64,000 bases of DNA from Arthrobacter sp. C2 (GTDB taxonomy: Bacteria; Actinomycetota; Actinomycetes; Actinomycetales; Micrococcaceae). The stretch is from assembly GCA_024207135.1 (NCBI GenBank), contig CP042428.1:1984001-2048000 (forward strand). The letters are read 5' to 3'. Position 1 is the stretch's first letter; each line of letters begins with the position of its first letter. Below, piece after piece: positions 14,456-49,924 of this stretch. The position numbers were made by a program, and so were the translations under genes. The notes below the pieces were generated by a model. The model did no database searches and was not told the origin of the DNA. It worked only from the letters and a program-made list of their open reading frames with translations.

Positions 14456-14545
14456 CAAGAGGTTACATGTTGCCAGTGTTGTGGGTGTGTCCCGGACGAC
14501 ACAATGGAGGCAACAACATCTCCGTCTTGAAAGGACACCACCTCC

Positions 14546-16039: not shown

Positions 16040-16074
16040 GCGACAAGCACAGAATCCAGAAAGGGACTACTCCC

Positions 16075-17445
16075 ATGAGCACTTCCGTGAACACCGAGAT
16101 CACCGCGGAGCAGATTGCCGCCGGCAAGGTGGCCCACGACCTGGACCGCGAGCATGTCTTCCATTCCTGGCAGGCCCAGGGCCCCTTCGATCCGATGACC
16201 ATCATCAAGACCGAGGGCTCCTGGATCTGGGACGGGGAGGGCAACAAGCTTCTTGACCTTTCCTCGCAGCTGGTCAACACCAACATCGGCCACCAGCACC
16301 CCAAGGTCGTCGCGGCCATCCAGGCGCAGGCGGCAGACATCTGCACCATCGCCCCGCAGTACGTCAACGACGCCCGTTCCGAGGCGGCCCGGCTGATCGC
16401 GGAGCTGACCCCCGGGGACCTGAACAAGATCTTCTTCACCAACGGCGGCGCCGACGCCAACGAGCACGCCATCCGCATGGCCCGCGTGCACACCGGCAGG
16501 CACAAGGTCCTCTCGGCCTACCGCAGCTACCACGGCGGCACGCACTTGGCGGTGAACGTCACCGGCGACCCGCGCCGCGTGGCCTCGGACAACGCCACCG
16601 ACGGCGTCGTGCACTTCTTCCCGGCCTACCCGTACCGCTCCTACTTCAACTCGACCACCGAGGCCGAAGAGACCCAGCGCGCACTGCGCCACCTTGAAGA
16701 CACCATCGTGCTCGAGGGCCCGGGCAACATTGCCGCGCTGATCCTCGAATCGATCCCGGGCAGCTGCGGCATCTACGTGCCGCCGGCCGGCTACATGGAA
16801 GGCGTGCGCGAGCTGACCCGCAGGCACGGCATCGTCTTCATCGCCGACGAGGTCATGGCCGGCTTCGGCCGCGCCGGAAAGTGGTTCGCCGTGAACCACT
16901 GGAATGTGACCCCGGACCTGCTCACCTTCGCCAAGGGCGTGAATTCCGGCTACGTTCCCCTGGGCGGGGTGGCGATCTCGGATGCCATCTTCGAGACCTT
17001 CCGCGACCGCGCCTACCCGGGCGGCCTGACCTACTCGGGCCACCCGCTGGCCTCCGCCGCCGTCGTGGCAACCATCAACGCCATGAAGGACGAGGGGATG
17101 GTGGAAAACGCCGCACGCCTGGGCTCCGACATCATCGGCCCGGTGCTGGAAGAACTCAAGGCCAGGCACCCGTCGGTGGGCGACGTGCGCGGCACCGGCT
17201 GCTTCTGGGCCGTCGAGCTGGTCACCAACCGCGAAACCCGCGAACCCATGGCTCCCTACGGCGGTTCCTCCCCGGCCATGGCCGCGGTGACCGCGGCGTT
17301 GAAGTCCGGCAGCGTGCTGCCGTTCGTGAACTTCAACCGCGTCCATGTGGTTCCGCCGCTGAACATCAGCGACGAGGACCTGCGCGCGGGTCTTGCGATC
17401 CTGGACGAGGCGCTCACGGTCGCCGACGGATTCGTCGAGGCATAG
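16075..17445 (+). CDS. Class III PLP omega-aminotransferase (beta-alanine/GABA type)
   Basis: Fold-type I aminotransferase of 456 residues. The PLP lysine is Lys 287 in TFAKGVNSGYVPLGG and the cofactor Asp is Asp 258 in IADEVMAGFGRAG. FFTNGGADANEHAIRMAR is the phosphate-binding segment. AAAGGGA precedes the ATG at 16075. The open frame runs much further upstream, over mmsA, but the start chosen gives the normal family length. Co-directional with mmsA at 35 nt spacing, it probably converts beta-alanine to malonate semialdehyde with pyruvate or 2-oxoglutarate as acceptor. Taurine or GABA are alternatives. It is not closely similar to the aminotransferase at 3814, so the two are not a recent duplication. 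Confidence 0.88.
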   Translation: MSTSVNTEITAEQIAAGKVAHDLDREHVFHSWQAQGPFDPMTIIKTEGSWIWDGEGNKLLDLSSQLVNTNIGHQHPKVVAAIQAQAADICTIAPQYVNDARSEAARLIAELTPGDLNKIFFTNGGADANEHAIRMARVHTGRHKVLSAYRSYHGGTHLAVNVTGDPRRVASDNATDGVVHFFPAYPYRSYFNSTTEAEETQRALRHLEDTIVLEGPGNIAALILESIPGSCGIYVPPAGYMEGVRELTRRHGIVFIADEVMAGFGRAGKWFAVNHWNVTPDLLTFAKGVNSGYVPLGGVAISDAIFETFRDRAYPGGLTYSGHPLASAAVVATINAMKDEGMVENAARLGSDIIGPVLEELKARHPSVGDVRGTGCFWAVELVTNRETREPMAPYGGSSPAMAAVTAALKSGSVLPFVNFNRVHVVPPLNISDEDLRAGLAILDEALTVADGFVEA

Positions 17446-19468: not shown

Positions 19469-20905
19469 CTAGCCGTTGATCACCTGCGGCTGGCCCAGGG
19501 CCTTGAGCCCGTCCACCCCGAATTCCACGCCGTAGCCGGAGGACTTGGCCCCGCCGAAGGGAATCCGCGGATCCACGCCGCCGTGGCTGTTGATCCACAC
19601 GGTACCGGCCTGCATGCGCGCTGCAACGGCACGGGCCGCCTCGCGGTCGCCGGACCACACGGAGGCACCCAGGCCGACATCGAGCCCATTGGCGAGTTCC
19701 AGGGCCTGCTCGATCGAGTCGACCTTGACGATCGGCAGGACCGGGCCGAACTGCTCCTCGACGACCAGCGGGTTGTCGGTGGCGATGTCCGCGATCAGCG
19801 TGCTGGGGTAGAAGTAGCCCGGCTGGTCCGCCTGCGGGTTGGCGCCGAGCAGCACGCGCGCACCGGATTCGGTGGCCTTGTCCACCAGTGCGGCGACGAT
19901 GTCGTACTGGGCCTTGTTCTGCAGCGGCCCCAGCACGTTGGCCTCGTCCAGGCCCACGCCCATCGGCATGTTCCTCGCGACCTCGACCAACGCCGCACAG
20001 ACCTCATCGTAGATGTCCTTGTGCACGTAGAGGCGCTTGAGCGCCGCACAGGTCTGGCCGGTGTTGATGAACGCGCCCCAGAACAGGTTCTCGGCGATGG
20101 CCTTGGGGTCCACGTCGGGCAGCACGATGCCGGCATCGTTGCCGCCCAGTTCCAGGGTCAGCCGCTTCACGGTGTCGGCCGAGGACCGGATGATGGCCTT
20201 GCCGGTGGCGGTGGAGCCGGTGAACATGACCTTGTCGACGTCCTGGTGGGTGCTCAGCAGCTGGCCGACGTCGCGGCCGCCGGCGACCACGTGCAGCACG
20301 CCGGCCGGGAGCACCTGGTTGATGACGTGGCCCAGGGCCAGCACGCTCAGCGGGGTGTATTCGCTGGGCTTCATCACCACGGTGTTGCCCATGCGCAGGG
20401 CCGGGGCCAGCTGCCAGACCGAGATCATCATCGGCCAGTTCCACGGGCCGATGGCACCGACGACGCCGAAGGGGCGGTAGTGCATCTCCGCGTAGGTGGT
20501 TCCGTCGTCAACGAGCACCTCGGCCTCGAGGTCGAAGGCGGCTGCGGCGCGCAGCCAGGCTGCCGCGCCCCCGACCTCGAAGCGGGCGTTCGGGCCGTTC
20601 AGCGGCTTGCCCTGCTCGCGCGAGAGCAGGTGGGCCAGCGCCTCGGCATTTGCCTCGATGGCGTCGGCGGCCCGGTTCATCAGGGCGCGGCGTGCCTCGT
20701 GGCCCAGTCCGTCCCATTCCGGCTGTGCCGCACGGGCAGCGGCGATGGCGGCCTCGAGGTCCGCGACCTCGTGTTCCGGTGCGCGGCCCACCAGTTCGCC
20801 GGTGGCCGGGTCGAGGATTTCGCGCCCGCCGGTGGCCGGCTGGATGGCTTCCAGCAATTGCTCAGCGGTGGCGTAGCTGGCGACGGTGTTGGTTTCGGTG
20901 CTCAT
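19469..20905 (-). CDS. NAD(P)-dependent aldehyde dehydrogenase
   Basis: Aldehyde dehydrogenase of 478 residues that oxidises an aldehyde to its acid. The catalytic Cys is Cys 286 in FINTGQTCAALK, the general base Glu is Glu 252 in LELGGNDAG, and the oxyanion Asn is in GPWNWP. AAAAGGAAA precedes the ATG at 20905. It is the last gene after an APC permease, 73 nt downstream. A copper amine oxidase gene lies 3.5 kb away, so an aryl or alkyl aldehyde from amine oxidation is a reasonable substrate. The precise substrate cannot be read from sequence. Confidence 0.9.
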   Translation of the reverse strand: MSTETNTVASYATAEQLLEAIQPATGGREILDPATGELVGRAPEHEVADLEAAIAAARAAQPEWDGLGHEARRALMNRAADAIEANAEALAHLLSREQGKPLNGPNARFEVGGAAAWLRAAAAFDLEAEVLVDDGTTYAEMHYRPFGVVGAIGPWNWPMMISVWQLAPALRMGNTVVMKPSEYTPLSVLALGHVINQVLPAGVLHVVAGGRDVGQLLSTHQDVDKVMFTGSTATGKAIIRSSADTVKRLTLELGGNDAGIVLPDVDPKAIAENLFWGAFINTGQTCAALKRLYVHKDIYDEVCAALVEVARNMPMGVGLDEANVLGPLQNKAQYDIVAALVDKATESGARVLLGANPQADQPGYFYPSTLIADIATDNPLVVEEQFGPVLPIVKVDSIEQALELANGLDVGLGASVWSGDREAARAVAARMQAGTVWINSHGGVDPRIPFGGAKSSGYGVEFGVDGLKALGQPQVING

Positions 20906-20978
20906 GGTTCGTTTCCTTTTCTTGTCTCTGGGTTTGCCGGAAGTCGTGTTTGTTGAATGGGTCGGTGGGGGCGGCGGG

Positions 20979-22469
20979 TCAGCGCGGCGTGGTCTCGTCG
21001 GCTTCATCTAGGTCCCCGCCGTGTCCGACGCCCGCGTAAATCGCCGGTTGGGTGGAGCGCAGCCTGAAGGCCCAGAGCAGGCCGAGGATGCCCGGGACCA
21101 CCACGAGTGCCGGAAGCAGCCATCCCAGGATGCTGGCGCCTTCCAGTCCGATCAGCACGTCGAAGTTCGCCACGATCGCCCCGAAGAGGACAACCAGTGC
21201 GATCCCGGCGAGCAGCGGTGCCACCACGGTGGTCCACCGTCCCAGCCCGTGCGGTTCGCTGCGGAAGTAGCCGATGACCGCGAAGGACGTCAGCGCCATG
21301 AGCATGACCAGCCCGAACGCGCCGGTGTTGGTGAGCCAGGTGAACAGCGTGAACACGGGGAACATGACGTCGGCGCCCGCCCCGGCGATTGCGAAGACCA
21401 CCAGCACCAGCAGCGCCACTGCCGACTGGGCCAGCGAGCCTGCCACCGGGGCATGGGTGCGCGGGTTGGTCTTGGCCGCGGCCGCGGGAAGCACGCCCTC
21501 GCGGCCCAGCGAGAAGACGTAGCGCGCCACCACGTTGTGGAAGGCGATCAGTGCGGCGAGCAGGCTGGTGATGAACAGCAGGTTTCCGAGGGTGACAAAC
21601 CACCCTGGGGTGTGGGCGGCCAGGAACCCGAAGACCAGGCCTGGACCCGCGGCGGAGTTTTCGATGACGGCGCTGTGTCCCTCGCCCACGGCCATGGCCC
21701 ACGCGGAGAGCGCGTAGAAGACGGCGATGATGCCGATCGCGATCAGCGTCGCCCGCCGCGGGGTGTTCTTGGGGTCCTTGACCTCCTCGCCGTAGATGGC
21801 GCCGGATTCAAATCCCATGAACGCCGCGATGCTGAAGGCCAGGGCGGCACCCGCACCGGCGGTGAACAGGCTTGCCGGTTCCAGCGACTCGGTGGAGATG
21901 CCCTCGGGAGCGACCTTGAAGGCCAGCACGTCGTAGACGATGACGACGAGGAATTCACAGGCCACCACGATGCCCAGCACCTTGGCGGAGAGATCGACCT
22001 TGTTCACGCCCAGGATGGCCACGACGGCCCAGCCGGCCAGGGCGCACACCCACCACGGGAGTGAAAACCCGAACGTGGTGGCGAGGAAATCGGCGAGCGC
22101 GAACCCGAACATCCCGTAGATGCCGATCTGCATGGCGTTGTAGCTGATCAGCGCCACCCACGCGGCACCGATCCCTGCGGGCTTGCCCAGGCCGCGGGCC
22201 ACATAGGCGTAGAACGCGCCGGCGTTGCTCACGTGCTGGCTCATGGCCGTGTACCCCACGGCGAAGACCAGCAGGACGACGCCCAGCACGACGAAGGACA
22301 GCGGGATGCCCAGCACGCCGGTGACCGCGTAGTTGCTGGTGACTCCCCCGGCGACGACCGTCAGCGGCGCGGAAGCGGCGATGATCATGAAGACCAGCGC
22401 GGGCACCCCGAGAGTGCGTTTGCCGAGGCTCGGGGCCGTGGTGATGTGTGAATCGGTGGATGAAGCCAT
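20979..22469 (-). CDS. APC-family amino acid/amine permease
   Basis: Inner-membrane permease of 496 residues with about 12 hydrophobic segments. The APC signature appears early (IAASAPLTVVAGGV) and again in GFESGAIYGEEVKDPKNTPRRAT, which is the usual TM6-loop motif. A strong ribosome-binding site AAGGAGG lies 8 nt before the ATG at 22469. It precedes the aldehyde dehydrogenase on the same strand and follows an AraC-type gene after 134 bp, forming a transport-oxidation-regulation set. Its substrate is probably an aromatic or aliphatic amine or amino acid. Confidence 0.88.
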   Translation of the reverse strand: MASSTDSHITTAPSLGKRTLGVPALVFMIIAASAPLTVVAGGVTSNYAVTGVLGIPLSFVVLGVVLLVFAVGYTAMSQHVSNAGAFYAYVARGLGKPAGIGAAWVALISYNAMQIGIYGMFGFALADFLATTFGFSLPWWVCALAGWAVVAILGVNKVDLSAKVLGIVVACEFLVVIVYDVLAFKVAPEGISTESLEPASLFTAGAGAALAFSIAAFMGFESGAIYGEEVKDPKNTPRRATLIAIGIIAVFYALSAWAMAVGEGHSAVIENSAAGPGLVFGFLAAHTPGWFVTLGNLLFITSLLAALIAFHNVVARYVFSLGREGVLPAAAAKTNPRTHAPVAGSLAQSAVALLVLVVFAIAGAGADVMFPVFTLFTWLTNTGAFGLVMLMALTSFAVIGYFRSEPHGLGRWTTVVAPLLAGIALVVLFGAIVANFDVLIGLEGASILGWLLPALVVVPGILGLLWAFRLRSTQPAIYAGVGHGGDLDEADETTPR

Positions 22470-22603
22470 GGGAAGTTCCTCCTTGTAGCGTCTTTCCTAC
22501 CAGTTTGCTTTCCAGTCGGGTGTTGGGGCTTGGCTTTGCGTGAGCGCTCCTTGGCAAACAGTGCAATCTTGCCCTCGGACCCCGCCCGGCTGTCGTGTCG
22601 AAA

Positions 22604-23533
22604 CTAGAATTGGGCCTTGAACGCCGAGGGCGAGATCCCGTACGCCGCACGAAAGACCCTGCTGAAATGCGCTGCATCGGGAAAACCCCAGCGGGAGCCA
22701 ACCGCTCCCACGGGGACGTGGCGTTGGAGGGGATCTTCCAGGTCTCGTCGGCATTGCTCGAGCCTTCGGGTGCGAATCCATTCGGCGACGGTGTGCCCCG
22801 ACTCGGCGAAAATCTTGTGCAGGCTGCGCAAGGACACGAAATGCGACTCGGCTACGGAGCCCGGGCACAATTCGGGATCGGCGAGATGCTCGTTGATGTA
22901 GGCCTGTATGGCCAGGAGCTGTCGGTGTTGGCCGTCGGCTGCCGGGTCGTCGTGGTCGTGGAGTTCGGCCGCGAGCAAGGTGCCCAACAGGTCAATGGCG
23001 TTTGCGGCCAGCCGATGCCCCACGGGATCCCGAAGCTGCGGAAGCAGGCCCGCCAGTTGCCCCAGGAATGGCGTGACGGCCCGGCCCAGGGGATGTTCTG
23101 TTCCGATGGCAGTGGCCGTCATCTCCCGGATTTTGGCCACCGGCAGTCCCAACTGGTGCTGGGGAAACATGAGGACGAGGGTCTTGAAGTCCTCCTCGAA
23201 CATCAGCGTGTAGGGGCGCTGCGTGTCGTAGATGGCCAGTTCGCCGGGTCGCAGCAGGGTTTCCCGACCGTCCTGCAGCAGCATTCCATGCCCGCTGAGC
23301 TGCAGGTTGAGCTTGAAGTGCGGCGCGTCGCCTGCGGCCAGCTGGTTTTCTGTGCGGCGCACCGCGTGGGCAGTGGCCTCGACCTGCATGACGCCCACGG
23401 AGCCGAATTGGCTGCCGGCGATGCTTCCGGCAAAGGCTCCCGCACGCACCGGTTCCGAATGCAGCGGAACGAAGGCACTGGACACGAGCGACTTCCATGC
23501 TTCGAAGGAATCAACGTGTTGCATCTGGTACAT
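22604..23533 (-). CDS. AraC-family transcriptional regulator
   Basis: A 309-residue regulator. The N-terminal AraC-binding-like domain (about residues 25-190, with RPGELAIYDTQRPYTLMF) is followed by a C-terminal double HTH of the AraC/XylS type (about 205-305: SLRSLHKIFAESGHTVAEWI, then WGFPDAAHFSRVFRAAYGISP). This architecture occurs in activators of amine and aromatic catabolism such as FeaR. ATG 23533 is chosen over an upstream TTG at 23554. It precedes the permease and aldehyde dehydrogenase and probably activates them, which would parallel the feaR-tynA-feaB logic for aromatic amines, but the link is inference. Confidence 0.88.
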   Translation of the reverse strand: MYQMQHVDSFEAWKSLVSSAFVPLHSEPVRAGAFAGSIAGSQFGSVGVMQVEATAHAVRRTENQLAAGDAPHFKLNLQLSGHGMLLQDGRETLLRPGELAIYDTQRPYTLMFEEDFKTLVLMFPQHQLGLPVAKIREMTATAIGTEHPLGRAVTPFLGQLAGLLPQLRDPVGHRLAANAIDLLGTLLAAELHDHDDPAADGQHRQLLAIQAYINEHLADPELCPGSVAESHFVSLRSLHKIFAESGHTVAEWIRTRRLEQCRRDLEDPLQRHVPVGAVGSRWGFPDAAHFSRVFRAAYGISPSAFKAQF

Positions 23534-23667
23534 GAGCGAGAGACCTTTCCCCAATTGCGGTGATGTCCCTCGGCATGAACGGCTCCAAGGGAAGTGAACG
23601 ACATCACATTCCAGTCAATGTACGCGCAACAGCCCCTAAAGTCACGTTTTTTCTCTGACTGTAGGTT

Positions 23668-24279
23668 TTAAATCCAGGTGTCGGGTCGGCCCGCCTTCAA
23701 CAGCTCCAGATATTGATCCAATTGGGCGCGCAGTTGCGCCGGGTCGTTGAACCCCGCATCCAGCACGGCCGCCACCTGGGCGCCCAGAAGGAAGGTCAGC
23801 AGCGATTCAGCCGCGGCGTCGGTGCGGACCTCCTGGCGCAGCGCACCCTGGCTTGCCGCCTCGGCGAGCCACTCCCTGATCCAGCTCCGCCATTGGAGCA
23901 TGGCCTCGTCATTGAGTGCGGAAAATTCGGGGTCGTGGATGGCCGCCTGCCAAAACGGGATCACGACCCGGGCCTCGTCGAGCCGGTCCTCATCCAGTGG
24001 AAGGACCTCCAGGGCAAATGCGTGCAGGGCCCCCAGCCCGCTCAAGCCCCGAATGGAAGATTCGACCCGGGCGTTGGTGCGGCCGAAGACATGGGTGAAG
24101 GTTGCGCGGACCAGGCTGGCCCGCGTGGGAAAGTACGGCTTCAGCGCCCCGTTGGCAAAGCCGGCCTCGGCCGCCACGTCGCGCAGGGTCACCCCGTCAA
24201 AGCCGCGGTGGGCAATGACCCTCCAGGTGACCTCGACAAGCTCGAGGCGGCGGGCGTCATGATCAACAATCTTTGGCAT
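23668..24279 (-). CDS. TetR-family transcriptional repressor, divergent from the amine oxidase
   Basis: A 203-residue repressor. The N-terminal HTH is [29 protein letters not shown], with the typical TetR pattern, and the C-terminal ligand domain has the BetI-like TetR_C pattern ([14 protein letters not shown]). The start is ATG 24279 (MPKIVDHD, a common opening) or 24288. It is divergent from the copper amine oxidase gene, with a perfect 9-6-9 palindrome between the two, so it is very likely the repressor of that gene and possibly of itself. An amine substrate is the expected inducer. Confidence 0.88.
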
Positions 24280-24363
24280 GCCACCCATCCTACGGATTCC
24301 CCCATCCCCTGCCGCACGGTGCACCGCCCGGGACCACCCCCTTGCCATGCCCGACAAACGCGG

Positions 24364-24387
24364 TTATTCTCTACAAGCAGAGAATAA
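24364..24387. promoter_or_regulatory. TetR-type operator overlapping the amine oxidase promoter
   Basis: TTATTCTCT, 6-nt spacer, AGAGAATAA: a perfect 9-6-9 inverted repeat. TATTCT at 24365-24370 is a plausible -10 box with TTGCCA at 24342-24347 as -35 (17-bp spacing), so a bound repressor would block the amine oxidase promoter. Confidence 0.75.
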
Positions 24388-24457
24388 AAACGTGGTGCAG
24401 GTCACCGGCACCGGTAATGCACGTCTCGTTCGTCCCCACCCCCGAAAGGGCAACGCC

Positions 24458-26374
24458 ATGAACCTCAGCAACGCCATCGACCAAGACACCCGCCTCGGAG
24501 CCTATGCCCTTGCCGCCGAAGCGGAAATCGCACAGGTGCGCACCATCCTGGCCGAAAACGGCCACTTCCCGGAATCGGCCCGCGTTGCCTACCTGGGACT
24601 CGAGGATCCTCGCCGGGACGCAACGGAGACCGATCGCCGCTTCCGGGTCTTCCTCCTCGATGTCGGCGGCAACCGCCCCAAGGACATCGTGGTTTCCGTG
24701 ACCCGCGGCGAGGTGGAAAGCGTCATCGAGCTGGACACAGCCACCAGCGGCGAGCTGCCGGTGCTGGAGGAGGAATTCGAGGTCGTCGAGCAATTGCTGG
24801 CACAGGACCCGCGCTGGCTCGAGGCCCTGGCCAAGCGGAACCTCGACGTGGACAAGGTGCGCGTCGCCCCGCTCTCTGCAGGTGTGTTCGAGTACCCGGA
24901 GGAATCGGGCCGCCGCATCCTGCGCGGACTGGCCTTCGTGCAGGACCACCCGGAAGACTCGGCCTGGGCCCACCCGGTCGACGGACTCGTCGGCTACGTG
25001 GATGTGGGAAACCGCAGCGTGGACCAGGTCATCGACCTGGGCGTCGTCCCGATCCCAGCCGAACACGGCAACTACACCGACCCCGAATTGACCGGCCCGC
25101 TGCGCACCACGCAGAAGCCGATCTCCATCACGCAACCCGAGGGCCCCAGCTTTGCCGTCACCGGAGGCAACCACGTCGAGTGGGAAAAATGGAGCCTGGA
25201 TGTGGGTTTCGATGTGCGTGAGGGTTTGGTGCTGCACAATATTTCCTTCTTGGACAAGGGTGCACCGCGGCGCATCCTCAACCGCGCCTCGATCGCCGAG
25301 ATGGTGGTCCCCTATGGCGATCCCTCCCCGGTGCGCAGCTGGCAGAACTACTTCGACACCGGCGAATACCTGGTGGGCCAGTTCGCCAACTCGCTCGAGC
25401 TGGGCTGCGACTGCCTGGGCGAGATCCACTATATTTCCCCGGTGGTCTCCAACGCCCGCGGCGAGGCACGCACCATCCGCAACGGCATCTGCATGCACGA
25501 GGAAGACTATTCGATCCTGGCCAAGCACTCGGATCTGTGGAGCGGCATCAACTACACCCGCCGCAACCGCCGCCTGGTGATCTCCTTCTTCACCACCATC
25601 GGCAACTACGACTACGGTTTCTACTGGTACCTCTACCTTGACGGCACCATCGAGTTCGAGGCCAAGGCCACCGGCATCGTGTTCACCAGTGCGCTTCCGG
25701 ACGGGGAAACGCCCTACGCCTCCGAGCTGGCCCCGGGGCTCGGCGCCCCCTACCACCAGCACCTCTTCGGAGCACGACTGGACTTCGCCCTCGACGGCGG
25801 CCCCGGCCGCGTCGAGGAAGAGGACGTGGTTCGTGTGCCCACCGGACCGGAGAACCTGCGGGGCAATGCGTTCTCGCGCCAGCGCACGGTGCTGGCCCGC
25901 GAGTCCGAAGCGATCCGCGACGCGGACAACGCCAAGGGCCGCACCTGGGTGGTCTCCAACCCGGAATCGAAAAACCGCCTGGGCCACCCGGTGGGCTACA
26001 AGCTGCACCCGCAGGGCAATCCCACCCTCCTGGCCGACGAGGGATCCTCGATCCACCGCCGCGCCACCTTTGCCGCCAAGGCCCTGTGGGTCACCCCGGC
26101 CACCGAGGACCAGCGCTACCCGACCGGCGACTTCGTGAACCAGCATGCCGGTGGTGCCGGGCTGCCCGAATGGGTCAAGGCCGACCGCAGCATCGACGGC
26201 GAGGAGATCGTCCTGTGGCACACCTTCGGGCTCACACACTTCCCGCGCCCGGAGGACTGGCCCATCATGCCGGTGGACACCGTGGGCTTCAAGCTGCGTC
26301 CCGAGGGCTTCTTCGACCGCTCGCCGGTCCTGGATGTCCCGGCTCCGGCCACCGGCAAGTCCTGCCACTCCTAG
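24458..26374 (+). CDS. tynA: Copper-containing primary amine oxidase (phenylethylamine-oxidase type)
   Basis: TPQ quinoenzyme of 638 residues that oxidises primary amines to aldehydes with release of ammonia and hydrogen peroxide. The TPQ precursor is Tyr 384 in the consensus IGNYDYG, the catalytic base is Asp 300 in YFDTGEYL, and copper ligands are His 433 and His 435 in [12 protein letters not shown] plus a third His in [15 protein letters not shown]. Length and the spacing of these residues closely match the Arthrobacter phenylethylamine oxidase type. There is no signal peptide, so it acts in the cytoplasm. AAAGGG lies before the ATG at 24458. A small membrane protein gene follows 10 bp later. 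The favoured substrate (phenylethylamine, tyramine or histamine) cannot be fixed from motifs. Confidence 0.95.
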
Positions 26375-26384
26375 GCGGCCTGCC

Positions 26385-26867
26385 ATGACCACGAATCTTG
26401 CCGGCACCCCCGCCGCGTGGTCCGTGCCGCGGATCGGTGCGACCGTGCTGACCCGGGTGCCGGGGACAGTGGTCTACGCGCGGATCGTTGCCATCCTGGC
26501 GGCGGGTCTGGGCCTGGTCCATGTGTGGGTCATGGTCGCGTTTCCCCACGGGCCGTGGGTGGGCGCCGTTTTGGGCGCCATGGTGTTGCTGTGCCTCAAG
26601 TGCGCGCACCGGTCCTGGGGACACCCGGCGGCCTTGGTCGAATTGCTGGCCATGTCCGCCCTCATGGCCCTGGCGCACACCTTCATGGCCCTGGGCGTCC
26701 ACGAACACCGGCACGGCGGCGAGGGCCCGGTCGCGACCGCCGGCGCCGGCTCCGGCGCAATGCTGGGCATCGCCGTGGCCGAGCTGTCGCTGGTCATGCT
26801 CTGCGGGATCGGCATGCGGCTGGCCGCCCACCGTTCCGCGGAGGGCACCGGCGGCACCGGCCGCTAA
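26385..26867 (+). CDS. Small membrane protein downstream of the amine oxidase
   Basis: A 160-residue protein with about four hydrophobic segments: VVYARIVAILAAGLGLVHVW, PWVGAVLGAMVLLCLKCA, VELLAMSALMALAHTFMAL and IAVAELSLVMLCGIGMRLA. Several His lie in the loops, as in HRSWGHP and LGVHEHRHGG, which could bind a metal. It begins 10 bp after the amine oxidase stop and is almost certainly co-transcribed. I do not recognise the family. The His-rich loop next to a copper enzyme makes copper handling a possible role, but nothing proves it. Confidence 0.7.
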   Translation: MTTNLAGTPAAWSVPRIGATVLTRVPGTVVYARIVAILAAGLGLVHVWVMVAFPHGPWVGAVLGAMVLLCLKCAHRSWGHPAALVELLAMSALMALAHTFMALGVHEHRHGGEGPVATAGAGSGAMLGIAVAELSLVMLCGIGMRLAAHRSAEGTGGTGR

Positions 26868-26941
26868 ACCGCAGTCGCCGCTTCGCCGCCGCGGCGGGGT
26901 TTTGGGATACTTCCCGGTTCCCTGCCGCGGTGGCCCGGCGC

Positions 26942-27628
26942 TCAGCGCACCAGCCGCGCGGCGATCCCGCCCAGCAGCAGATCCAGGGCGAACCGGTAGT
27001 TCTCCTCGTCCTGGACCGCTGCCATCGCTTCCACCGAGCCGGTCCCCAGGGGGTACTTCCCCTCGGGTTCCTGGGCGTAGCTGCGCACCCAGGCCTCGTC
27101 GTCCTGCGCGGACTTCTCGCCCAGAAGCAGCAGGCCGGCACTGAATCCGGTCCAGGCCAGCACGAAGTCCCCGCACGCCCGGTACACCAGTGCCGCTTCG
27201 CGTTTCCCGAATCCCGCCTGGCGCAGCGCCGCGAGCATCGCCTCGATGAATTCACGCTCGCCCTCCTGGCGCGTCACCCGCAATGCGGCAAGCGTGGCGA
27301 CCTGGGGGTAGTGCAGGAAGCTTGCCCGGATCCGCAGCATCAGCTCCCGCACCGAGGCCTCCCAGCCCGCGCCCGGGCCGTAGCCGTCCATGCCCCTGGC
27401 GATCACCCGGTCGGCGAGCGCCAGCAGCAACTCGTCCTTGTCGGCGAAGTGGCGGTACAGAGCGGTGGGATCGGCTCCGAGTTCCTTGCCGATCTTCCGG
27501 AAGGAGAGCGCATCGGGTTCGGTCCCGGCTGCAAGCCCCAAACAGGCCTCGAGGATAACCTCCCGAGTCAGGCCCTGGGCGCGGCGGCGCGGGGCGGATG
27601 CCTTGTCCACTGGCTTGTCGATATCCAT
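26942..27628 (-). CDS. TetR-family transcriptional regulator, divergent from the amidohydrolase operon
   Basis: A 228-residue repressor with an N-terminal HTH (ALSFRKIGKELGADPTALYRHFADKDELL) and a C-terminal TetR_C domain. The start ATG 27628 is chosen; upstream in-frame GTG/TTG codons would overlap the operator. It is divergent from a four-gene operon, and a perfect 25-bp palindrome lies between the two, so it is very probably the local repressor. There is no close resemblance to the TetR at 23668 beyond the family fold, and their operators differ. Confidence 0.87.
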   Translation of the reverse strand: MDIDKPVDKASAPRRRAQGLTREVILEACLGLAAGTEPDALSFRKIGKELGADPTALYRHFADKDELLLALADRVIARGMDGYGPGAGWEASVRELMLRIRASFLHYPQVATLAALRVTRQEGEREFIEAMLAALRQAGFGKREAALVYRACGDFVLAWTGFSAGLLLLGEKSAQDDEAWVRSYAQEPEGKYPLGTGSVEAMAAVQDEENYRFALDLLLGGIAARLVR

Positions 27629-27657
27629 CGGCGGGTGTCGCTCCCTCTTGTCTCGCA

Positions 27658-27682
27658 CTAAAGTCAACAGTGTTGACTTTAG
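27658..27682. promoter_or_regulatory. 25-bp perfect palindrome, TetR operator
   Basis: CTAAAGTCAACA, one central G, TGTTGACTTTAG. Each strand carries TTGACT, a -35-like hexamer. On the plus strand TTGACT (27673-27678) has TTTTAT 17 bp later (27696-27701) as a possible -10, which would drive the amidohydrolase operon and be blocked by a bound repressor. Confidence 0.8.
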
Positions 27683-27765
27683 GCCATGGGTGCGATTTTA
27701 TGAAGTGGATCACTTCTTCAGGGTCGCAGGCAATTGCTGCGCACCTCCACGGCGAAAGGGCGGCA

Positions 27766-29433
27766 GTGAGCGAGACCTGGCTTTTCCACTCGGGCACCAT
27801 CTTCGATGGCCACAACGTCATGGCCGCCGGCAGCGCGCTCGCCGTGCGCAACGGCCGGGTCCTGGCTGTGGGCCCCGAGGCGCAGGTCCGCCGCGCGCTT
27901 CCGAACCCGGACCACGAGGTTTCCCTGGCCGGCCGTGCGCTGTCCCCCGGTTTCACCGACGCACACGTCCATGCCCTGATGGGCGGCGTGGAGTCCCTGG
28001 CCTGCGACCTCACCGGTGCCGACGGCCCGGACGAAACCCTGGCAGCCATCGCTTCCTTTGCCGCAACCCACACCGGCGGCTGGCTCACCGGCGGCGGCTG
28101 GACCATGAGCGACTTCCCCGGCGGCACCCCCACCGCCGCAATGCTGGACCCAGCCACCGGCGCGATCCCCACTTACTTGATCAACCGCGACCACCATGGC
28201 GCCTGGGTCAATTCCGCGGCACTGCAGCTTGCAGGGATCACCGCGCAAACGGCGGACCCGGCGGACGGGCGGATCGAGCGCGACGCGCAGGGACATCCGA
28301 CCGGAACCCTGCACGAGGGCGCCATGGACCTGGTCAACGCCCTGGTCCCCGCCCCCGAGGCAGCCACCCTGCGCGCGGGGCTGCTGGCCGGCCAGCGGAA
28401 CCTGCACTCCTTCGGGATCACCGGATGGCAGGAAGCGATCCTGGGCAACTACGCCGGATACACGGACGGGTCCGGTATCTACCGCGGGCTGTTGGCCGAG
28501 GGCCTGCTCACCGGGCAGGCCGCGGGCGCGCTCTGGGTTCCCCGCGAGACCACCCTCGCCTCGGTGCCCGCCCTGGTCCAGGATTTCCTGGCCCGCCGGA
28601 AGGAAAACGCCGCCGCCGGGTTCCGCACGACCACCGCGAAGATCATGGTCGACGGGGTCGCGGAGAACCGGACCGCCGCCATGCTCGATCCCTACCTGCG
28701 TGCCTGCGATTGCGCCCCCGACTCCCCGGGCGACACCGGGCTGCGCTACCTCTCCGCCGAGGTGCTCACCGCGGTTGCCGTGGCGCTGGACGCCGCCGGG
28801 TTCGACCTGCACCTGCACGTCATCGGCGACGGGGCCGCCCGTCTGGGACTGGATGCACTCGAGGCAGCCCGCGCGGCCAACGGCGCCACCGGCGGACGCC
28901 ACCACCTCGCCCACCTGCAGGTCATCCACCCCGACGACGTGGCACGGTTCGGGGCCCTGGGCCTGAGCATCAACGCCCAGGCGCTCTGGGCGTGCAACGA
29001 CGAGCAGATGCTGGAGCTGACCAACCCGATCCTGGGCGCGGAACGCGCCGGCTGGCAGTATCCCTTCCGCTCCCTGATCGACGCCGGGGCGCACCTGGTG
29101 ATGGGATCGGACTGGCCGGTTTCCACGCCCGACCCGTTCGCAGCCATCCACGTCGCGGTCAACCGCACCGAGCCCGGCCACCCCCAGGGCGCACCGCTGG
29201 TCCCGGAGCAGGCCATCACGGTGCTGGAGGCCATGCGCGGCTACACCTCCGGCAGCGCCTGGGTGAACCGCGACCACGAAGGCGGAAACCTCCGACCCGG
29301 GGCACGGGCCGACCTGGTGCTGCTGGATGCCGATCCATTCTCCATCCCCTCCCGCGACCTGCACCGGGTGGGGGTGGAACTCACCCTCGCCTCTGGGCAC
29401 GCGGTCTTCACCCGGGCCACCGCGGGCGTCTAG
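27766..29433 (+). CDS. YtcJ-like amidohydrolase (amidohydrolase family 3)
   Basis: Metal-dependent hydrolase of 555 residues in the amidohydrolase superfamily. Metal-binding motifs include GFTDAHVHALMGG, KIMVDGV, DLHLHVIGDGA, HHLAHLQVIHP and GSDWPVSTPDP. It resembles N-substituted formamide deformylase-type enzymes (YtcJ group). The start is GTG 27766, with AAAGGG 5 nt before it; the open frame continues upstream to 27598 without a better start. It heads an operon with an FAD amine oxidase, a cupin and an aldehyde dehydrogenase. This suggests it frees an amine from an amide or formamide for oxidation. Other amidohydrolase substrates are possible, so the reaction stays unproven. Confidence 0.87.
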   Translation: MSETWLFHSGTIFDGHNVMAAGSALAVRNGRVLAVGPEAQVRRALPNPDHEVSLAGRALSPGFTDAHVHALMGGVESLACDLTGADGPDETLAAIASFAATHTGGWLTGGGWTMSDFPGGTPTAAMLDPATGAIPTYLINRDHHGAWVNSAALQLAGITAQTADPADGRIERDAQGHPTGTLHEGAMDLVNALVPAPEAATLRAGLLAGQRNLHSFGITGWQEAILGNYAGYTDGSGIYRGLLAEGLLTGQAAGALWVPRETTLASVPALVQDFLARRKENAAAGFRTTTAKIMVDGVAENRTAAMLDPYLRACDCAPDSPGDTGLRYLSAEVLTAVAVALDAAGFDLHLHVIGDGAARLGLDALEAARAANGATGGRHHLAHLQVIHPDDVARFGALGLSINAQALWACNDEQMLELTNPILGAERAGWQYPFRSLIDAGAHLVMGSDWPVSTPDPFAAIHVAVNRTEPGHPQGAPLVPEQAITVLEAMRGYTSGSAWVNRDHEGGNLRPGARADLVLLDADPFSIPSRDLHRVGVELTLASGHAVFTRATAGV

Positions 29434-29515
29434 GGGCACCGATTCGGCTCCAGTCCTCCCCCGCACGCATTTTCTGCACGAACACCCGTTCACTTCGTCC
29501 ATGCAAGGAACCTCC

Positions 29516-30982
29516 ATGAGCAGCACTCCTGCCACTTCCACCGGCACCCACGTCTCCTTTGACCGCATCGAGGCGGCCGTTTCCGGGTCCGCCATCGACG
29601 CGGCTCTGTCCGGCACCGACTACTCCCCCTACTGGCTGCAGCACCCCGACCGCCCGGCCCCGCTTCCGGCGTTGGAAGGCCGCGTGTCCACCGATCTGCT
29701 GGTCGTCGGCGGCGGCTACTCCGGGTTGTGGACCGCGTTGCTGGCCAAGGAAGCGGACCCTGCCCGCGATGTCACCCTGATCGAATCCGAGACCATCGGC
29801 TGGGCCGCCTCCGGGCGCAACGGCGGTTTCTGCGAGGCATCGCTGGTGCACGGGGAATCCAACGGCGAAAAGCACCTGCCCAGGGAAAACAAGCGGCTCA
29901 CCGAGCTCGGCGCCGAAAACCTCGCCGGCATCGTGGAAACCATCCAGAGGTACAACATCGACTGCGACCTGTCCCCCAGCGGCGTGCTGAACGTCGCCAC
30001 CGAACAACACCAGGTGTCCTGGCTCCAGGAGGAGGCGGCGGCCAACCCCGAGGTGCCCTTCATGGATGCACAGGAGGTCAGGAGCCACATCAACTCGCCG
30101 ATCTTCGAGGGCGGAAACTGGGATAAGCACACCACCGTGCTGGTGCACCCGGCCAAGCTCGCCTGGGGCCTGCGCCGGGTCTGCCTGGAGAAGGGCGTGA
30201 AGATCTTCGAGCACACCAAGGGCGAGGAACTTTCCTCCACCCCCGAATCGATCGGGGTGCGCACCGGAGCGGGGCACATCACCGCCGCGCGGGTCGCCCT
30301 GGCCACCAACGTCTTCCCCTCGTTGCTCAAGCGCCACCGGATGCACACCATCCCGGTGTACGACTACGCCCTGATGACCGAGCCGCTGACCGATCAGCAG
30401 CGTGCGGCCATCGGCTGGGAGGAAGGCATGGGCCTGGCCGACCTGAACAACCGCTTCCACTACTCCCGTCCCACCGTGGATGCGAACGGCGGCTGGCGCA
30501 TCCTCTTTGGCGGCTACGACGCCGTCTACCACTACGGGCGGGGCGTCAAGCACCAATACGACACCCACCACGAGACCTTCCGGAAGCTCGCCGCGCACTT
30601 CGTGGGCACCTTCCCGCAGCTGGAGGGCATCAGGTTCTCCCACGCCTGGGGCGGGGCCATCGACACCTGCAGCCGCTTCTTCGCCTTCTTCGACACCTCC
30701 CACGGCGGACGCGTCGCCTACTGCGCCGGGTACACCGGACTGGGCGTGGGCGCCACGCGCTTCGGGGCACGGGTCATGCTCGATCTGCTCTCGGGCGCCA
30801 ATACGGAACTGACCGAACTGGAAATGGTCAGGACGAAGCCGCTGCCCTTCCCCCCGGAACCGGTGGCCTGGCTGGGCGTCAAATTGATGACCAACGGCCT
30901 GGTCAAGGCCGACCGGAACGAGGGCAGGCGCGGCCCGTTCCTCAAGGCCATGGACCGACTCGGAATGGGGTTCGACTCGTGA
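29516..30982 (+). CDS. FAD-dependent amine oxidoreductase (DAO family, PuuB-like)
   Basis: Flavoenzyme of 488 residues. The N-terminal dinucleotide-binding motif is DLLVVGGGYSGLWTALLAKE (about residues 60-79), followed by WAASGRNGGFCEASL typical of DAO-family oxidases such as gamma-glutamylputrescine oxidase. The C-terminal FAD motif includes YCAGYTGLGVGATRFGARV. AAGGA precedes the ATG at 29516; an ATG at 29501 is also in frame. The stop overlaps the cupin start (GTGA), giving coupled translation. It probably oxidises an amine or N-substituted amine to an aldehyde for the dehydrogenase two genes on. No glutamylputrescine synthetase is present here, so the PuuB pathway itself is not established. 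Confidence 0.87.
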   Translation: MSSTPATSTGTHVSFDRIEAAVSGSAIDAALSGTDYSPYWLQHPDRPAPLPALEGRVSTDLLVVGGGYSGLWTALLAKEADPARDVTLIESETIGWAASGRNGGFCEASLVHGESNGEKHLPRENKRLTELGAENLAGIVETIQRYNIDCDLSPSGVLNVATEQHQVSWLQEEAAANPEVPFMDAQEVRSHINSPIFEGGNWDKHTTVLVHPAKLAWGLRRVCLEKGVKIFEHTKGEELSSTPESIGVRTGAGHITAARVALATNVFPSLLKRHRMHTIPVYDYALMTEPLTDQQRAAIGWEEGMGLADLNNRFHYSRPTVDANGGWRILFGGYDAVYHYGRGVKHQYDTHHETFRKLAAHFVGTFPQLEGIRFSHAWGGAIDTCSRFFAFFDTSHGGRVAYCAGYTGLGVGATRFGARVMLDLLSGANTELTELEMVRTKPLPFPPEPVAWLGVKLMTNGLVKADRNEGRRGPFLKAMDRLGMGFDS

Positions 30983-31377
30983 GCACCCCCGACTTCCCGC
31001 ACCTGTTGGGCGGCCAGGCCCTGCGCGTGAACCGCGTGCCCATGGACCACGAACCGGTGGCCCCCTCTCAGGCGGCCGACGAAACCACCACCACCGCGCT
31101 GGTGGAACTCGGCACCCTGGCCGGGACCGAATTCGGGATCTGGGAGATGGCCGCCGGCTCCATGTACGACGTGGAAGCCGAGGAAATCTTCGTTGTCACC
31201 GCCGGGCACGGCACCGTGGTCATCGCCCCCTTCGAGGGCCACCCCGCCCGCACCGCCGACCTTGTGCCGGGAACCATCATGCGCCTGAGCGCGGGAATGC
31301 AGACCACCTGGACCGTCACCGAGCCGCTTCGCAAGATCTACTTCACCCCCACCCACACCACCGGGAGCAATCCATGA
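30979..31377 (+). CDS. Cupin-domain protein in the amine-oxidase operon
   Basis: A 132-residue protein of the Cupin_3 type (EFGIWEMAAGSMYDVEAEEIFVVTAGHGTVVIAPFEG, with WTVTEPLRKIYFTP at the end). It has no HTH, so unlike PuuR it is not a regulator by itself. The GTG start overlaps the oxidase stop by 4 nt, and its own stop overlaps the aldehyde dehydrogenase start by 4 nt (ATGA), so three proteins are translationally coupled. The role is unknown; a stabilising or binding partner of the oxidase is one possibility. Confidence 0.78.
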   Translation: MSTPDFPHLLGGQALRVNRVPMDHEPVAPSQAADETTTTALVELGTLAGTEFGIWEMAAGSMYDVEAEEIFVVTAGHGTVVIAPFEGHPARTADLVPGTIMRLSAGMQTTWTVTEPLRKIYFTPTHTTGSNP

Positions 31378-32858
31378 GCACCACCAGCCAGGGCAACCAA
31401 TACATCAACGGCTCCTACCGCGTGGGTTCGGGCCCCGCCACCGAACGCATCAACCCCGCCACCGGGGCGGTCGACTCGGTCATCGATTATGCCGGGCCCC
31501 GGGATGTCGAGGACGCGGTGGCCGCCGCCGCGGCCGCCTTCACCACCTGGTCGCGACTGACCCCCGGCGCCCGCTCCGACTTCCTGCTGGCCTTCGCCAC
31601 CGAGCTTGCCTCCCGGGCCGGGCAGCTCGCCGCCCTGGAAACAGCCCAGACCGGCAAGTCCACGCGCATGTCCACCGAGTTCGACGTGCCCGGCACCATC
31701 GACAACGTGAACTTCTTTGCCGGGGCCGCACGCAACCTGCAGGGGGCCGCCGCCGGGGACTACGCCGGAAACTCCACCTCGATGATCCGCCGCGAGGCCA
31801 TCGGCGTGATCGGCTCCATCGCCCCGTGGAACTACCCGCTGCAGATGGCGGCCTGGAAGATCCTTCCGGCGATCGCGGCCGGCAACACCATCGTGCTCAA
31901 GCCCAGCGAACTGACCCCGGCAACCTCGCTCGTCTTCGCCGAGGCGGCCACCGCCGCTGGCATCCCCGACGGGGTCATCAACATCGTCACGGGGTCCGGC
32001 CGCGAGGTCGGCGAGGCCCTGCTCCGCCACCCGCAGGTGGCCATGTGCTCCTTCACCGGTTCCACGGCCGTGGGCCGGCGCATCATGGAAATGGCAGCCG
32101 AGACCGGAAAGCGCGTGCACCTGGAACTTGGCGGCAAGGCGCCGCTGGTCGTCTTTGCCGACGCCGACGTGGAGGCCGCGGCCCACGGCGCCGTGGCCGG
32201 TTCCACCATCAACGCCGGCCAGGACTGCACCGCCGCGACCCGCGCCTATGTGCATTCCTCGCTGTTCGGGAAATTCACCGCACGGGTGGCCGAGCTCATG
32301 GACCAGATGGTGGTGGGCGATCCCACCGACCCGGACACCGACATGGGCTCGCTGATCTCCTTTGCCCACCGCGACAAGGTCGCCTCCATGGTCCAGCGCG
32401 CGCGGGACTCCGGTGCCAGCGTGCTGGCCGGCGGGCTGGCCCCGGAGCTGCCCGGGGCGTTCTACCGCCCCACGCTCATCACCGGTGCCGCACAGGATTC
32501 CGAGATCGTCCAGGACGAGGTCTTCGGTCCCGTGCTGGTCGCGCTGCCCTTCGACACCGAGGACGAGGCCATCGCCCTGGCCAACGACACCCCGTACGGG
32601 CTGGCCGCCTCCGCCTGGACCAGCAACGTGAACCTGGCCATGCGTGCCGCGGCCCGGATCCAGGCCGGCTGCGTGTGGATCAACGAGCACATCCCGATCG
32701 TCTCGGAAATGCCGCACGGCGGGTACAAGGCCTCGGGCTTCGGCAAGGACATGAGTTCCTACTCCTTCGAGGAATACACCAACGTCAAGCACGTGCTGAT
32801 CTCCCACGACACCGACGTGCACAAGGCCTGGCAGGACACCGTCTTCAAGCAGCGCTAG
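31374..32858 (+). CDS. Aminobutyraldehyde-type aldehyde dehydrogenase
   Basis: Aldehyde dehydrogenase of 494 residues. The nucleophile is Cys 285 in STINAGQDCTAATR and the base is Glu 251 in LELGGKAP. The SPWNYPL-like segment reads APWNYPLQMAA, and the GQDC context together with overall length fits the gamma-aminobutyraldehyde dehydrogenase group (PatD/Prr). As the last gene of a coupled operon behind an FAD oxidase, it probably oxidises the aldehyde made there, for example 4-aminobutanal to GABA. It is not close to the aldehyde dehydrogenase at 19469, which has GQTC and a different N-terminus. Confidence 0.9.
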   Translation: MSTTSQGNQYINGSYRVGSGPATERINPATGAVDSVIDYAGPRDVEDAVAAAAAAFTTWSRLTPGARSDFLLAFATELASRAGQLAALETAQTGKSTRMSTEFDVPGTIDNVNFFAGAARNLQGAAAGDYAGNSTSMIRREAIGVIGSIAPWNYPLQMAAWKILPAIAAGNTIVLKPSELTPATSLVFAEAATAAGIPDGVINIVTGSGREVGEALLRHPQVAMCSFTGSTAVGRRIMEMAAETGKRVHLELGGKAPLVVFADADVEAAAHGAVAGSTINAGQDCTAATRAYVHSSLFGKFTARVAELMDQMVVGDPTDPDTDMGSLISFAHRDKVASMVQRARDSGASVLAGGLAPELPGAFYRPTLITGAAQDSEIVQDEVFGPVLVALPFDTEDEAIALANDTPYGLAASAWTSNVNLAMRAAARIQAGCVWINEHIPIVSEMPHGGYKASGFGKDMSSYSFEEYTNVKHVLISHDTDVHKAWQDTVFKQR

Positions 32859-32900
32859 GTCCCCGACACCGGCAAGCGCCCGCTGCCGTAGTGTCGAGAC

Positions 32901-33275
32901 ATGGAATTCATCAGGTACCAGGGCACCGCCCCGAACCGGCATGGCCGGTTTCCCGGTGTGTTTGCGCTGGCGAACGGGCTGGCCTCCGCCGGAAGGCTCG
33001 ACCCTGCCGACGTGGCCTGGCACCGCACCGCCAACGCCGCGGCCAACGCGCTGTATGCGGATCCGACCAGTGCGTCTCCGGAATGCTATGCGCTGCCGGG
33101 CGCATGCTCGTGGTTCAAGGTTTCGGCAACGCACCTGCTGGAAATGACCCGGGAATACCTTCAACTGCTGGACAGGCACCATGTCGGGTGGATCGAGCTG
33201 CGTTCAACCAGCCCCGGGACGATCACGCACGAGGACGACGTGCAGGTCGTCGCGGTTCCCGGGGACGCCCTGTAG
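32901..33275 (+). CDS. Conserved hypothetical protein
   Basis: A 124-residue soluble protein without signal or membrane segments. Patterns such as GRFPGVFALANGLA, ADVAWHRTANAAANALYADP, SWFKVSATHLLEMTREYLQLLDRH and HEDDVQVVAVP are coherent and protein-like, and I associate this layout with uncharacterised actinobacterial proteins. The ATG at 32901 starts 42 bp after the aldehyde dehydrogenase stop. It could be the last gene of that operon, but function is unknown. Confidence 0.65.
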   Translation: MEFIRYQGTAPNRHGRFPGVFALANGLASAGRLDPADVAWHRTANAAANALYADPTSASPECYALPGACSWFKVSATHLLEMTREYLQLLDRHHVGWIELRSTSPGTITHEDDVQVVAVPGDAL

Positions 33276-48865: not shown

Positions 48866-49029
48866 CGTGACGCCTCCTTGGCTGGACGGGACCGGCGCTC
48901 CGACCTGCGGTGCGGTTGTTCAGCCCATCCTAGGTCCCGCCTCCAATGCGCGCCACGCCGGTAGGGGAACCCGGTTTCGGGCCGCCATGTTCCTTTCGGT
49001 TCCGGGAACCCGCGGAGCCATGCCAGGCA

Positions 49030-49749: not shown

Positions 49750-49877
49750 GCCCCAAGCCTCCACAACCATCTGCAAAACTGTCAACCATTGCCCACGTCA
49801 GCCAGGCTTTTTCGGCCGCAAGCCCGCGCCGCCCAGGCGACGGCAACGGCTCTCCCAAAACCTCCGCGAATAAACAC

Positions 49878-49924
49878 TTGACACTTCAATCAAAAGAGGC
49901 GTACCGTAGTACTTGAAGCTTCAA
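49878..49924 (+). promoter_or_regulatory. Promoter with a 12-bp palindrome over the start point
   Basis: TTGACA (49878-49883) and TACCGT (49902-49907) are 18 bp apart, fitting -35 and -10. TTGAAGCTTCAA (49913-49924) is a perfect palindrome near the expected +1, a typical repressor position. Confidence 0.6.

Follow-up and report, generated by a model that had tools for sequence, protein, structure and literature searches.

What does a metal-dependent hydrolase do in one operon with an amine oxidase, a small cupin and an aldehyde dehydrogenase? The question is raised by a locus of Arthrobacter sp. C2, whose genome is a single contig of 4.56 Mb, and we analyzed it within a window of 64,000 nucleotides (positions 1,984,001 to 2,048,000 of contig CP042428.1), in which all coordinates are given unless stated otherwise. 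Behind a palindrome stand, all on the + strand, a hydrolase of the Amidohydro_3 family (AH), an oxidase of the DAO family dependent on flavin adenine dinucleotide (FAD; the oxidase is called DAO here), a stand-alone cupin and an aldehyde dehydrogenase (ALDH), in this order. This is a real, conserved operon, most likely controlled by a TetR repressor and serving the use of amines. Judging from the genes, we lean toward a repressor-controlled operon for the utilization of N-acylated primary amines, with acylated diamines or polyamines as the likeliest substrates. It probably begins from an acylated (poly)amine and oxidizes the freed amine to an acid as a nutrient.

In the mechanism that we posit, the repressor TetR2 would bind the palindrome until the amide or an intermediate sets it free. 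AH would hydrolyze the amide to acid and amine, DAO would oxidize the primary amine (a secondary one with spermidine) to an aminoaldehyde, and ALDH would convert the aminoaldehyde to an amino acid such as gamma-aminobutyrate (GABA). The cupin may be an accessory to the oxidase step, and a transaminase elsewhere in the genome, where a GABA transaminase scores above cut-off, would take the GABA-type amino acid onward.

Operon structure and operator

AH (27766..29433, + strand, GTG start) is a predicted metal-dependent amidohydrolase that matches PF07969 with an E-value of 8.4e-86. After a gap of 82 nt it is followed by DAO (29516..30982, +), an FAD-dependent amine oxidase/dehydrogenase with PF01266. 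The cupin (30979..31377, +; Cupin_3, EutQ-like/DUF861, PF05899) overlaps DAO by the 4 nt GTGA (30979-30982), and ALDH (31374..32858, +), of the aminobutyraldehyde dehydrogenase subfamily, overlaps the cupin by the 4 nt ATGA (31374-31377). An earlier note on this DNA had described four genes chained behind the palindrome, with 4-nt overlaps joining the last three; gene calls and family matches bear out both points.

The palindrome spans 25 bp (27658..27682), reads exactly CTAAAGTCAACA-G-TGTTGACTTTAG and carries the half-sites GTCAAC and GTTGAC. It is the sole match in the window at up to 3 mismatches, with 0 matches in 100 shuffles, and a chance origin is ruled out by the shuffles and by conservation across loci. 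Its 19-bp core has 1 exact site and 1 site with 3 mismatches in the whole genome; the reversed control pattern has 1 site too, so that only the exact match stands out. On its other side lies the gene of TetR2 (26942..27628, - strand), a TetR-family repressor with PF00440 and a TetR_C_1 domain (PF02909), relatives of which adjoin AH or DAO in related loci. Its open reading frame (ORF) as listed begins at a TTG within the palindrome; the ATG at 27628, to which we re-assigned the start, is the likelier one, and each of 6 loci inspected by eye shows an ATG start.

Of 24 intergenic regions that separate a TetR2 relative from its neighbor, 20 carry the half-site pair GTCAA[CT]-N0-5-[AG]TTGAC, including those of two strains without AH; the pair is absent from the regions of loci L121, L113, L116 and L117. 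These regions were hand-picked, with TetR2-bearing loci such as L112, L114, L115 and L133 left out, and the 485,848 bp of loci that hold them contain 23 occurrences in total. Within the operator begins a conserved promoter (27673..27701, +), composed of TTGACT at 27673-27678 as the -35 hexamer, a spacer of exactly 17 nt and TTTTAT at 27696-27701. It is kept in 12/12 loci of the genus (the locus of genome G006 left out), including two without AH in which the oxidase is the first gene; in 8 more distant regions with the half-site pair, the hexamer at the -10 place differs. A generic sigma-70 scan reported no promoter on either strand; the scan requires an A at position 2 of the -10, where TTTTAT has none. 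The -35-like hexamers that had been noted on both strands are present as the TTGAC half-sites. On the minus strand, though, no -10 of that kind was seen by eye at the right spacing, and the idea of two promoters was rejected since a conserved -10 at the right spacing exists on the + strand only.

The palindrome overlaps the -35 in the genus, which fits repression by occlusion, and it looks like a real operator. A divergent TetR gene together with a conserved palindrome over a promoter marks the locus as a putative TetR-regulated divergent operon. The single symmetrical operator of the earlier note thus stands, as an exact and conserved palindrome over the -35 of a conserved promoter, and the genomic context supports its control of the whole operon. 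Directly 3' of the -10 lies a further inverted repeat, GAAGTG-GAT-CACTTC (27702-27716); judged by eye in five other loci, it is conserved in L032, almost conserved in L031 and missing from L060, L062 and L065.

Oxidase, aldehyde dehydrogenase and cupin

The closest named copies of DAO belong to Paeniglutamicibacter psychrophenolicus (L031, 97% identity), Arthrobacter sp. AQ5-05 (L032, 91%), P. antarcticus (L039, 82%) and Arthrobacter sp. MYb227 (L033, 79%). DAO is 60% identical to the oxidase of Streptomyces sp. BHT-5-2 (L085), where the gene order is ALDH, polyamine-type ATP-binding cassette (ABC) transporter and oxidase, and its relatives adjoin ALDH and polyamine-type ABC transporters in L043, L045, L046, L073, L085 and L109. 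Its best NCBIfam model, a putative aminophosphonate oxidoreductase, gives 204.3 against a cut-off of 632.8, and DAO is therefore no member of that model. A second DAO-family oxidase (about 30% identical) lies nearby in L047, L069, L072, L101 and L102. The host genome itself holds a second oxidase copy (49-50%) at L049:5460-9828 (about 4437459-4441827 of the genome), which adjoins hydantoinase/oxoprolinase A- and B-like genes. On a Pseudomonas plasmid (L081), an oxidase is paired with such genes too, in the company of an APC permease and a cupin.

ALDH scores 689.5 bits with the aminobutyraldehyde dehydrogenase model NF010000 (cut-off 615), its closest solved relatives include the gamma-aminobutyraldehyde dehydrogenase 6c43, and it shares 64% identity with the copy in L085. 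The predicted cupin model (predicted local distance difference test, pLDDT, 90) fits best the folds 3bcw, 4axo and 3es4, which are DUF861 and EutQ proteins. In an alignment of 18 cupin sequences, none of the columns that are invariant or almost so holds a histidine, and a classical histidine-metal enzyme was rejected on this ground; a non-classical metal site is conceivable.

Variation in the genus and on plasmids

In 13 of the 15 genomes of the genus that were searched (G000-G014), a close oxidase copy lies in a locus of the same kind; G001 and G004 have distant relatives only. The set of four described in the earlier note is complete in 8 of these 13 loci (G000, G002, G003, G005, G006, G010, G011 and G012, G006 being read as a 4.5-kb locus only) and is not fixed: AH is missing in two (G008 and G013), and in the stretches read three lack ALDH (G007) or both cupin and ALDH (G009 and G014). 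The oxidase is the constant part of the genus loci.

Relatives of the oxidase, all below 60% identity, are also present in 1,099 plasmid records. We read 11 places among 40 listed, picked mostly for their annotation; 10 of them are annotated and 3 are actinobacterial (L079, L080 and L085). A cupin stands beside the oxidase or within 2 kb of it in 6 of the 10 annotated places (L080, L081, L083, L084, L213 and L214), and none does so in L079, L082, L215 and L216. Oxidase and cupin are accompanied by an Amidohydro_3 protein (30% identical to AH) and a polyamine ABC transporter on an Ensifer plasmid (L084), by an amidase and an M28 peptidase in Herbiconiux (L080) and by an agmatinase in Pannonibacter (L213) and Caballeronia (L214), while a Shinella plasmid (L083) combines oxidase, cupin and ALDH with a deacetylase of the histone deacetylase (HDAC) family and an ABC transporter. 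Each type of hydrolase was met in one or two loci only. They share one likely outcome, a freed amine, and this is a main ground for the function that we propose. Together with the linkage of AH to oxidases described below, these amine-releasing hydrolases support the direction from amide to amine, aldehyde and acid that the earlier note had predicted.

More speculatively, these loci could represent a modular acyl-amine utilization system of Actinomycetota and Pseudomonadota, with a core of DAO, a cupin devoid of the classical histidine site and ALDH, and with interchangeable hydrolases (Amidohydro_3, HDAC-type deacetylase, amidase or agmatinase). The Amidohydro_3 family of this operon would then represent a novel type of acylpolyamine deacylase, with a dedicated task for the cupin, for example in handling the reactive imine or aminoaldehyde. 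We put this wider view forward tentatively, as conceivable rather than probable.

The hydrolase and its genomic context

The Pfam matches of AH are PF07969, PF01979 and PF22039 only; the HDAC-type domain PF00850 is not among them. Residues H67, H69, K292, H349, H351, H383 and D449 are invariant in 24 aligned sequences, and the metal-ligand residues are conserved, with the individual ligands assigned putatively. PF07969 and these residues place AH among the Amidohydro_3 (NfdA/YtcJ-like) hydrolases. The predicted structure (pLDDT 94) is nearest to the solved folds 3igh and 3icj, two uncharacterized Pyrococcus hydrolases, and the predicted models of both AH and the cupin leave the substrate unfixed. 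A likeness of AH to SCO6961 was ruled out, as that protein is assigned to the amidohydrolase 2 family (PMC5403932).

In 59 relatives, 30 AH matches of 40% identity or more were entered, and 21 of them have an oxidase match (about 49% or more) no farther than 10 kb away, where about 0.24 would be expected; many of these pairs are orthologs within one genus, and the count becomes 21/31 with a partial match in G032 (42%), whose genome has no oxidase match. Across 396 genomes of the phylum, coordinates read by eye put 8 of the 71 listed AH matches no more than 10 kb from a listed oxidase match. We compared 89 AH loci, 73 of them outside the genus, with 36 control places, each in one of these same genomes at a distance of about 100-210 kb; of 37 places sought, one did not exist. 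This census took 26 of the 31 matches from the relatives (G006, G053:C4 and G058:C20 had no wide locus, one lay inside L055 and G032 was left out) and 63 of the 71 from the phylum (6 under 40% were left out and 2 were already counted). Several loci are short contigs, which lowers the counts, and the units counted are loci rather than independent events.

Outside the genus, any amine oxidase (DAO family at 27% identity or more, or copper amine oxidase) was found in 22/73 AH loci and in 0/36 controls (Fisher p 6.5e-5). The DAO family accounts for 20/73 at 27% identity or more and for 12/73 at 40% or more (p 0.008), both against 0/36. Likewise absent from the controls were class III aminotransferases (18/73, p 6e-4), polyamine-type ABC transporters (14/73, p 0.004) and peptide-type ABC transporters (8/73, p 0.051), and a TetR2-like gene was present in 16/73 loci and 1/36 controls (p 0.01). 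The association of the hydrolase family with amine oxidases extends outside the genus.

In a tree of 70 hand-picked AH sequences (L106 and L138 overlap, and the same AH was entered for both), the group that contains the AH of Arthrobacter sp. C2 (10 sequences, support 100/97) is oxidase-linked in 10/10. A separate group sits with a copper amine oxidase and ALDH, and others are linked to peptide-type ABC transporters or to polyamine-type ones with or without an oxidase. The labels change 27 times on the tree, compared to 41.3 in shuffles, which means that context is clustered on the tree yet often changing, and that links were gained or lost several times.

Several observations weigh against a role in acylated-amine use. 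No amine oxidase is seen in 51/73 AH loci outside the genus (some of them short contigs), and in the genus g50 a TetR2-like gene is present in 10/10 AH loci and an amine oxidase in 0/10. The enrichment of ALDH near AH outside the genus is not significant (12/73 vs. 1/36, p 0.057), nor is that of the cupin (4/73 vs. 0/36) or of copper amine oxidase alone (3/73 vs. 0/36). Within the genus, L065 and L066 keep TetR2, DAO, cupin and ALDH without AH, which is thus not indispensable. Gene order does not fix the order of reactions, and the SCO5671 oxidase of Streptomyces coelicolor has been proposed to act on gamma-glutamylated polyamines (PMC5403932). As an alternative, AH could act on an amide that has nothing to do with amine catabolism, and its position in the operon would be incidental or opportunistic; the many loci without an oxidase, the TetR gene as shared neighbor in g50 and the functional breadth reported for Amidohydro_3 (PMC13081902) agree with this. 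Yet oxidases, polyamine-type transporters and aminotransferases near AH exceed the controls, and the co-location is met again in several families of the phylum, while Ensifer shows it with a distant relative. We regard an unrelated amide as the most doubtful of the alternatives considered. The g50 loci are L112-L117, L133, L135, L136 and L174; the three intergenic regions checked there (L113, L116 and L117) lack the GTCAAC/GTTGAC motif.

The Puu route

Could the operon instead be a variant of the Puu route of putrescine catabolism? The genome encodes two glutamine synthetases only, and neither passes the gamma-glutamylputrescine synthetase model NF045547 (314.4 and 224.5 vs. a cut-off of 650). 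The second one, at 442.7 bits just over the GlnA cut-off of 429.15, is presumably a GlnA2, judging by the N-terminus typical of that family. In S. coelicolor, GlnA2 is reported to make gamma-glutamylputrescine, and it is given as present in about 96% of 24 Actinomycetales genera (PMC8998196). For PuuD (PF07722), three partial matches score 44.0, 35.0 and 23.9 bits, all formally above the 20.5-bit cut-off, and lie in open frames of 541, 281 and 873 amino acids; they appear to be other class I amidotransferases, none of them a convincing PuuD.

In such a rewired route, GlnA2 would glutamylate the polyamine, DAO would act as PuuB and ALDH as PuuC, and AH would replace PuuD on gamma-glutamyl-GABA. 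The widespread GlnA2 and the lack of a convincing PuuD favor this reading. It is opposed by the failure of both synthetases in the model above and by ALDH, which fits aminobutyraldehyde dehydrogenase and not the PuuC model NF007352 (369.8 vs. 850 bits). Two strains, moreover, lack AH, and AH relatives occur with a copper amine oxidase and ALDH but no DAO (L122, L123 and L124), where gamma-glutamyl-GABA would be unexpected. We consider the rewired route unlikely. The absence of glutamylputrescine genes stated earlier is borne out only in part: no synthetase passes the PuuA-type model and the partial PuuD matches are unconvincing, but one synthetase looks like a GlnA2. For the same reason, the statement that this is not simply the Puu route is supported only in part.

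Relation to known systems

With the E. coli Puu system the operon shares an oxidase and an ALDH of the same superfamilies, and the joining of amide chemistry and amine oxidation in one route. It differs in sequence (DAO is 30.5% identical to PuuB and ALDH 38% to PuuC) and in having no synthetase that passes the PuuA-type model and no convincing PuuD; the annotation of the E. coli puu genes, for its part, includes no Amidohydro_3 hydrolase and no stand-alone cupin. The SCO5666-SCO5671 cluster of S. coelicolor has an oxidase and ALDH of the same types, as compared via the L085 copies (60% and 64%) and not with SCO5671 itself. The gene order of L085 is the one tabulated for SCO5666-5671 in PMC9397018 (ALDH, PotFGHI-like ABC transporter and PuuB-like oxidoreductase). 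The operon differs from that cluster in its extra Amidohydro_3 hydrolase, cupin and TetR operator and in having no ABC transporter. A role in polyamine catabolism has been predicted for this type of oxidase and ALDH (PMC5403932, PMC8998196, PMC9397018). Spermidine is described as giving weak expression of SCO5671, and putrescine and cadaverine none (PMC5403932); its authors propose that the enzyme may convert spermidine and spermine to aminobutyraldehyde (PMC8998196), which by analogy would fit a free polyamine as substrate of DAO.

The role that we propose for AH resembles that of PA0321 and PA1409, the acetylpolyamine amidohydrolases of Pseudomonas aeruginosa, in that acylated diamines are made usable as a carbon source (PMC4784309); these belong to the HDAC family (Hist_deacetyl, PF00850), whereas AH is an Amidohydro_3 protein (PF07969). 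A hordenine route had no match in open-licence papers. The earlier note had called the operon undescribed. The four-gene set was indeed not found by term searches of the open-licence literature, which is weak evidence of absence, while its oxidase and ALDH have already been proposed for Streptomyces polyamine catabolism (PMC5403932, PMC8998196). Within that literature, the set looks new as a combination with a core of a known kind.

The proposed operon offers a testable function for a broad hydrolase family with few characterized members, and for a small cupin whose nearest solved relatives (3bcw and 3es4) are DUF861 proteins with no function assigned. A route from acylated amines need not rely on gamma-glutamylation, and the operator with its repressor could be used to sense the amide or amine that acts as inducer.

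The neighboring amine genes

To the left of the operon lies a second amine module. It comprises a copper amine oxidase of the phenylethylamine-oxidase type (24458..26374, +; NF008559 848.1 bits vs. a cut-off of 651), whose best solved relatives are phenylethylamine oxidases, and, on the minus strand, TetR1 (23668..24357; PF00440 and a BetI-type C-terminal domain, PF13977), an AraC-family regulator resembling FeaR (22604..23554; NF007243 172.8 bits, under the cut-off of 199), an APC-family amino acid/amine permease (20979..22469; PF13520) and, directly downstream of the permease, a second aldehyde dehydrogenase (19469..21007; PF00171). The latter reached no NCBIfam cut-off among the best 25 of its 44 matches. 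No polyamine ABC transporter was found among ten proteins scanned from 20982 to 33272.

As a further alternative, AH might serve the copper amine oxidase by freeing an aromatic amine (phenylethylamine or tyramine), with DAO, cupin and ALDH handling another amine in parallel. Among the 12 genus loci that were read widely, 11 also contain the copper amine oxidase (L067 does not), and AH relatives are paired with such an enzyme in L122-L124 and L072. NfdA, an N-substituted formamide deformylase from an Arthrobacter host, acts on N-benzylformamide. It is cited as an Amidohydro_3 deformylase in PMC13081902 and converts an amide to amine and acid, so that AH can be likened to it by family, not by sequence. 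However, AH lies in the transcription unit of DAO and not in that of the copper oxidase, AH-DAO pairs occur without a copper oxidase in L047, L067 and L071, and the AHs of L122-L124 form the separate tree group. We therefore judge a service to the copper oxidase improbable, and retain the use of acylated diamines or polyamines through DAO as our preferred explanation.

Farther away, an NCBIfam scan of the ORF at 48946-49881 gave no match. A 992-amino-acid protein (14467-17445), encoded next to a PucR-type regulator (12782-14431), carries a class III aminotransferase at its C-terminal end (NF004718 above cut-off); no Pfam family matches its N-terminal stretch of about 540 residues. Another class III aminotransferase (3814-5229; NF005102 above cut-off) lies about 15 kb from the amine genes.

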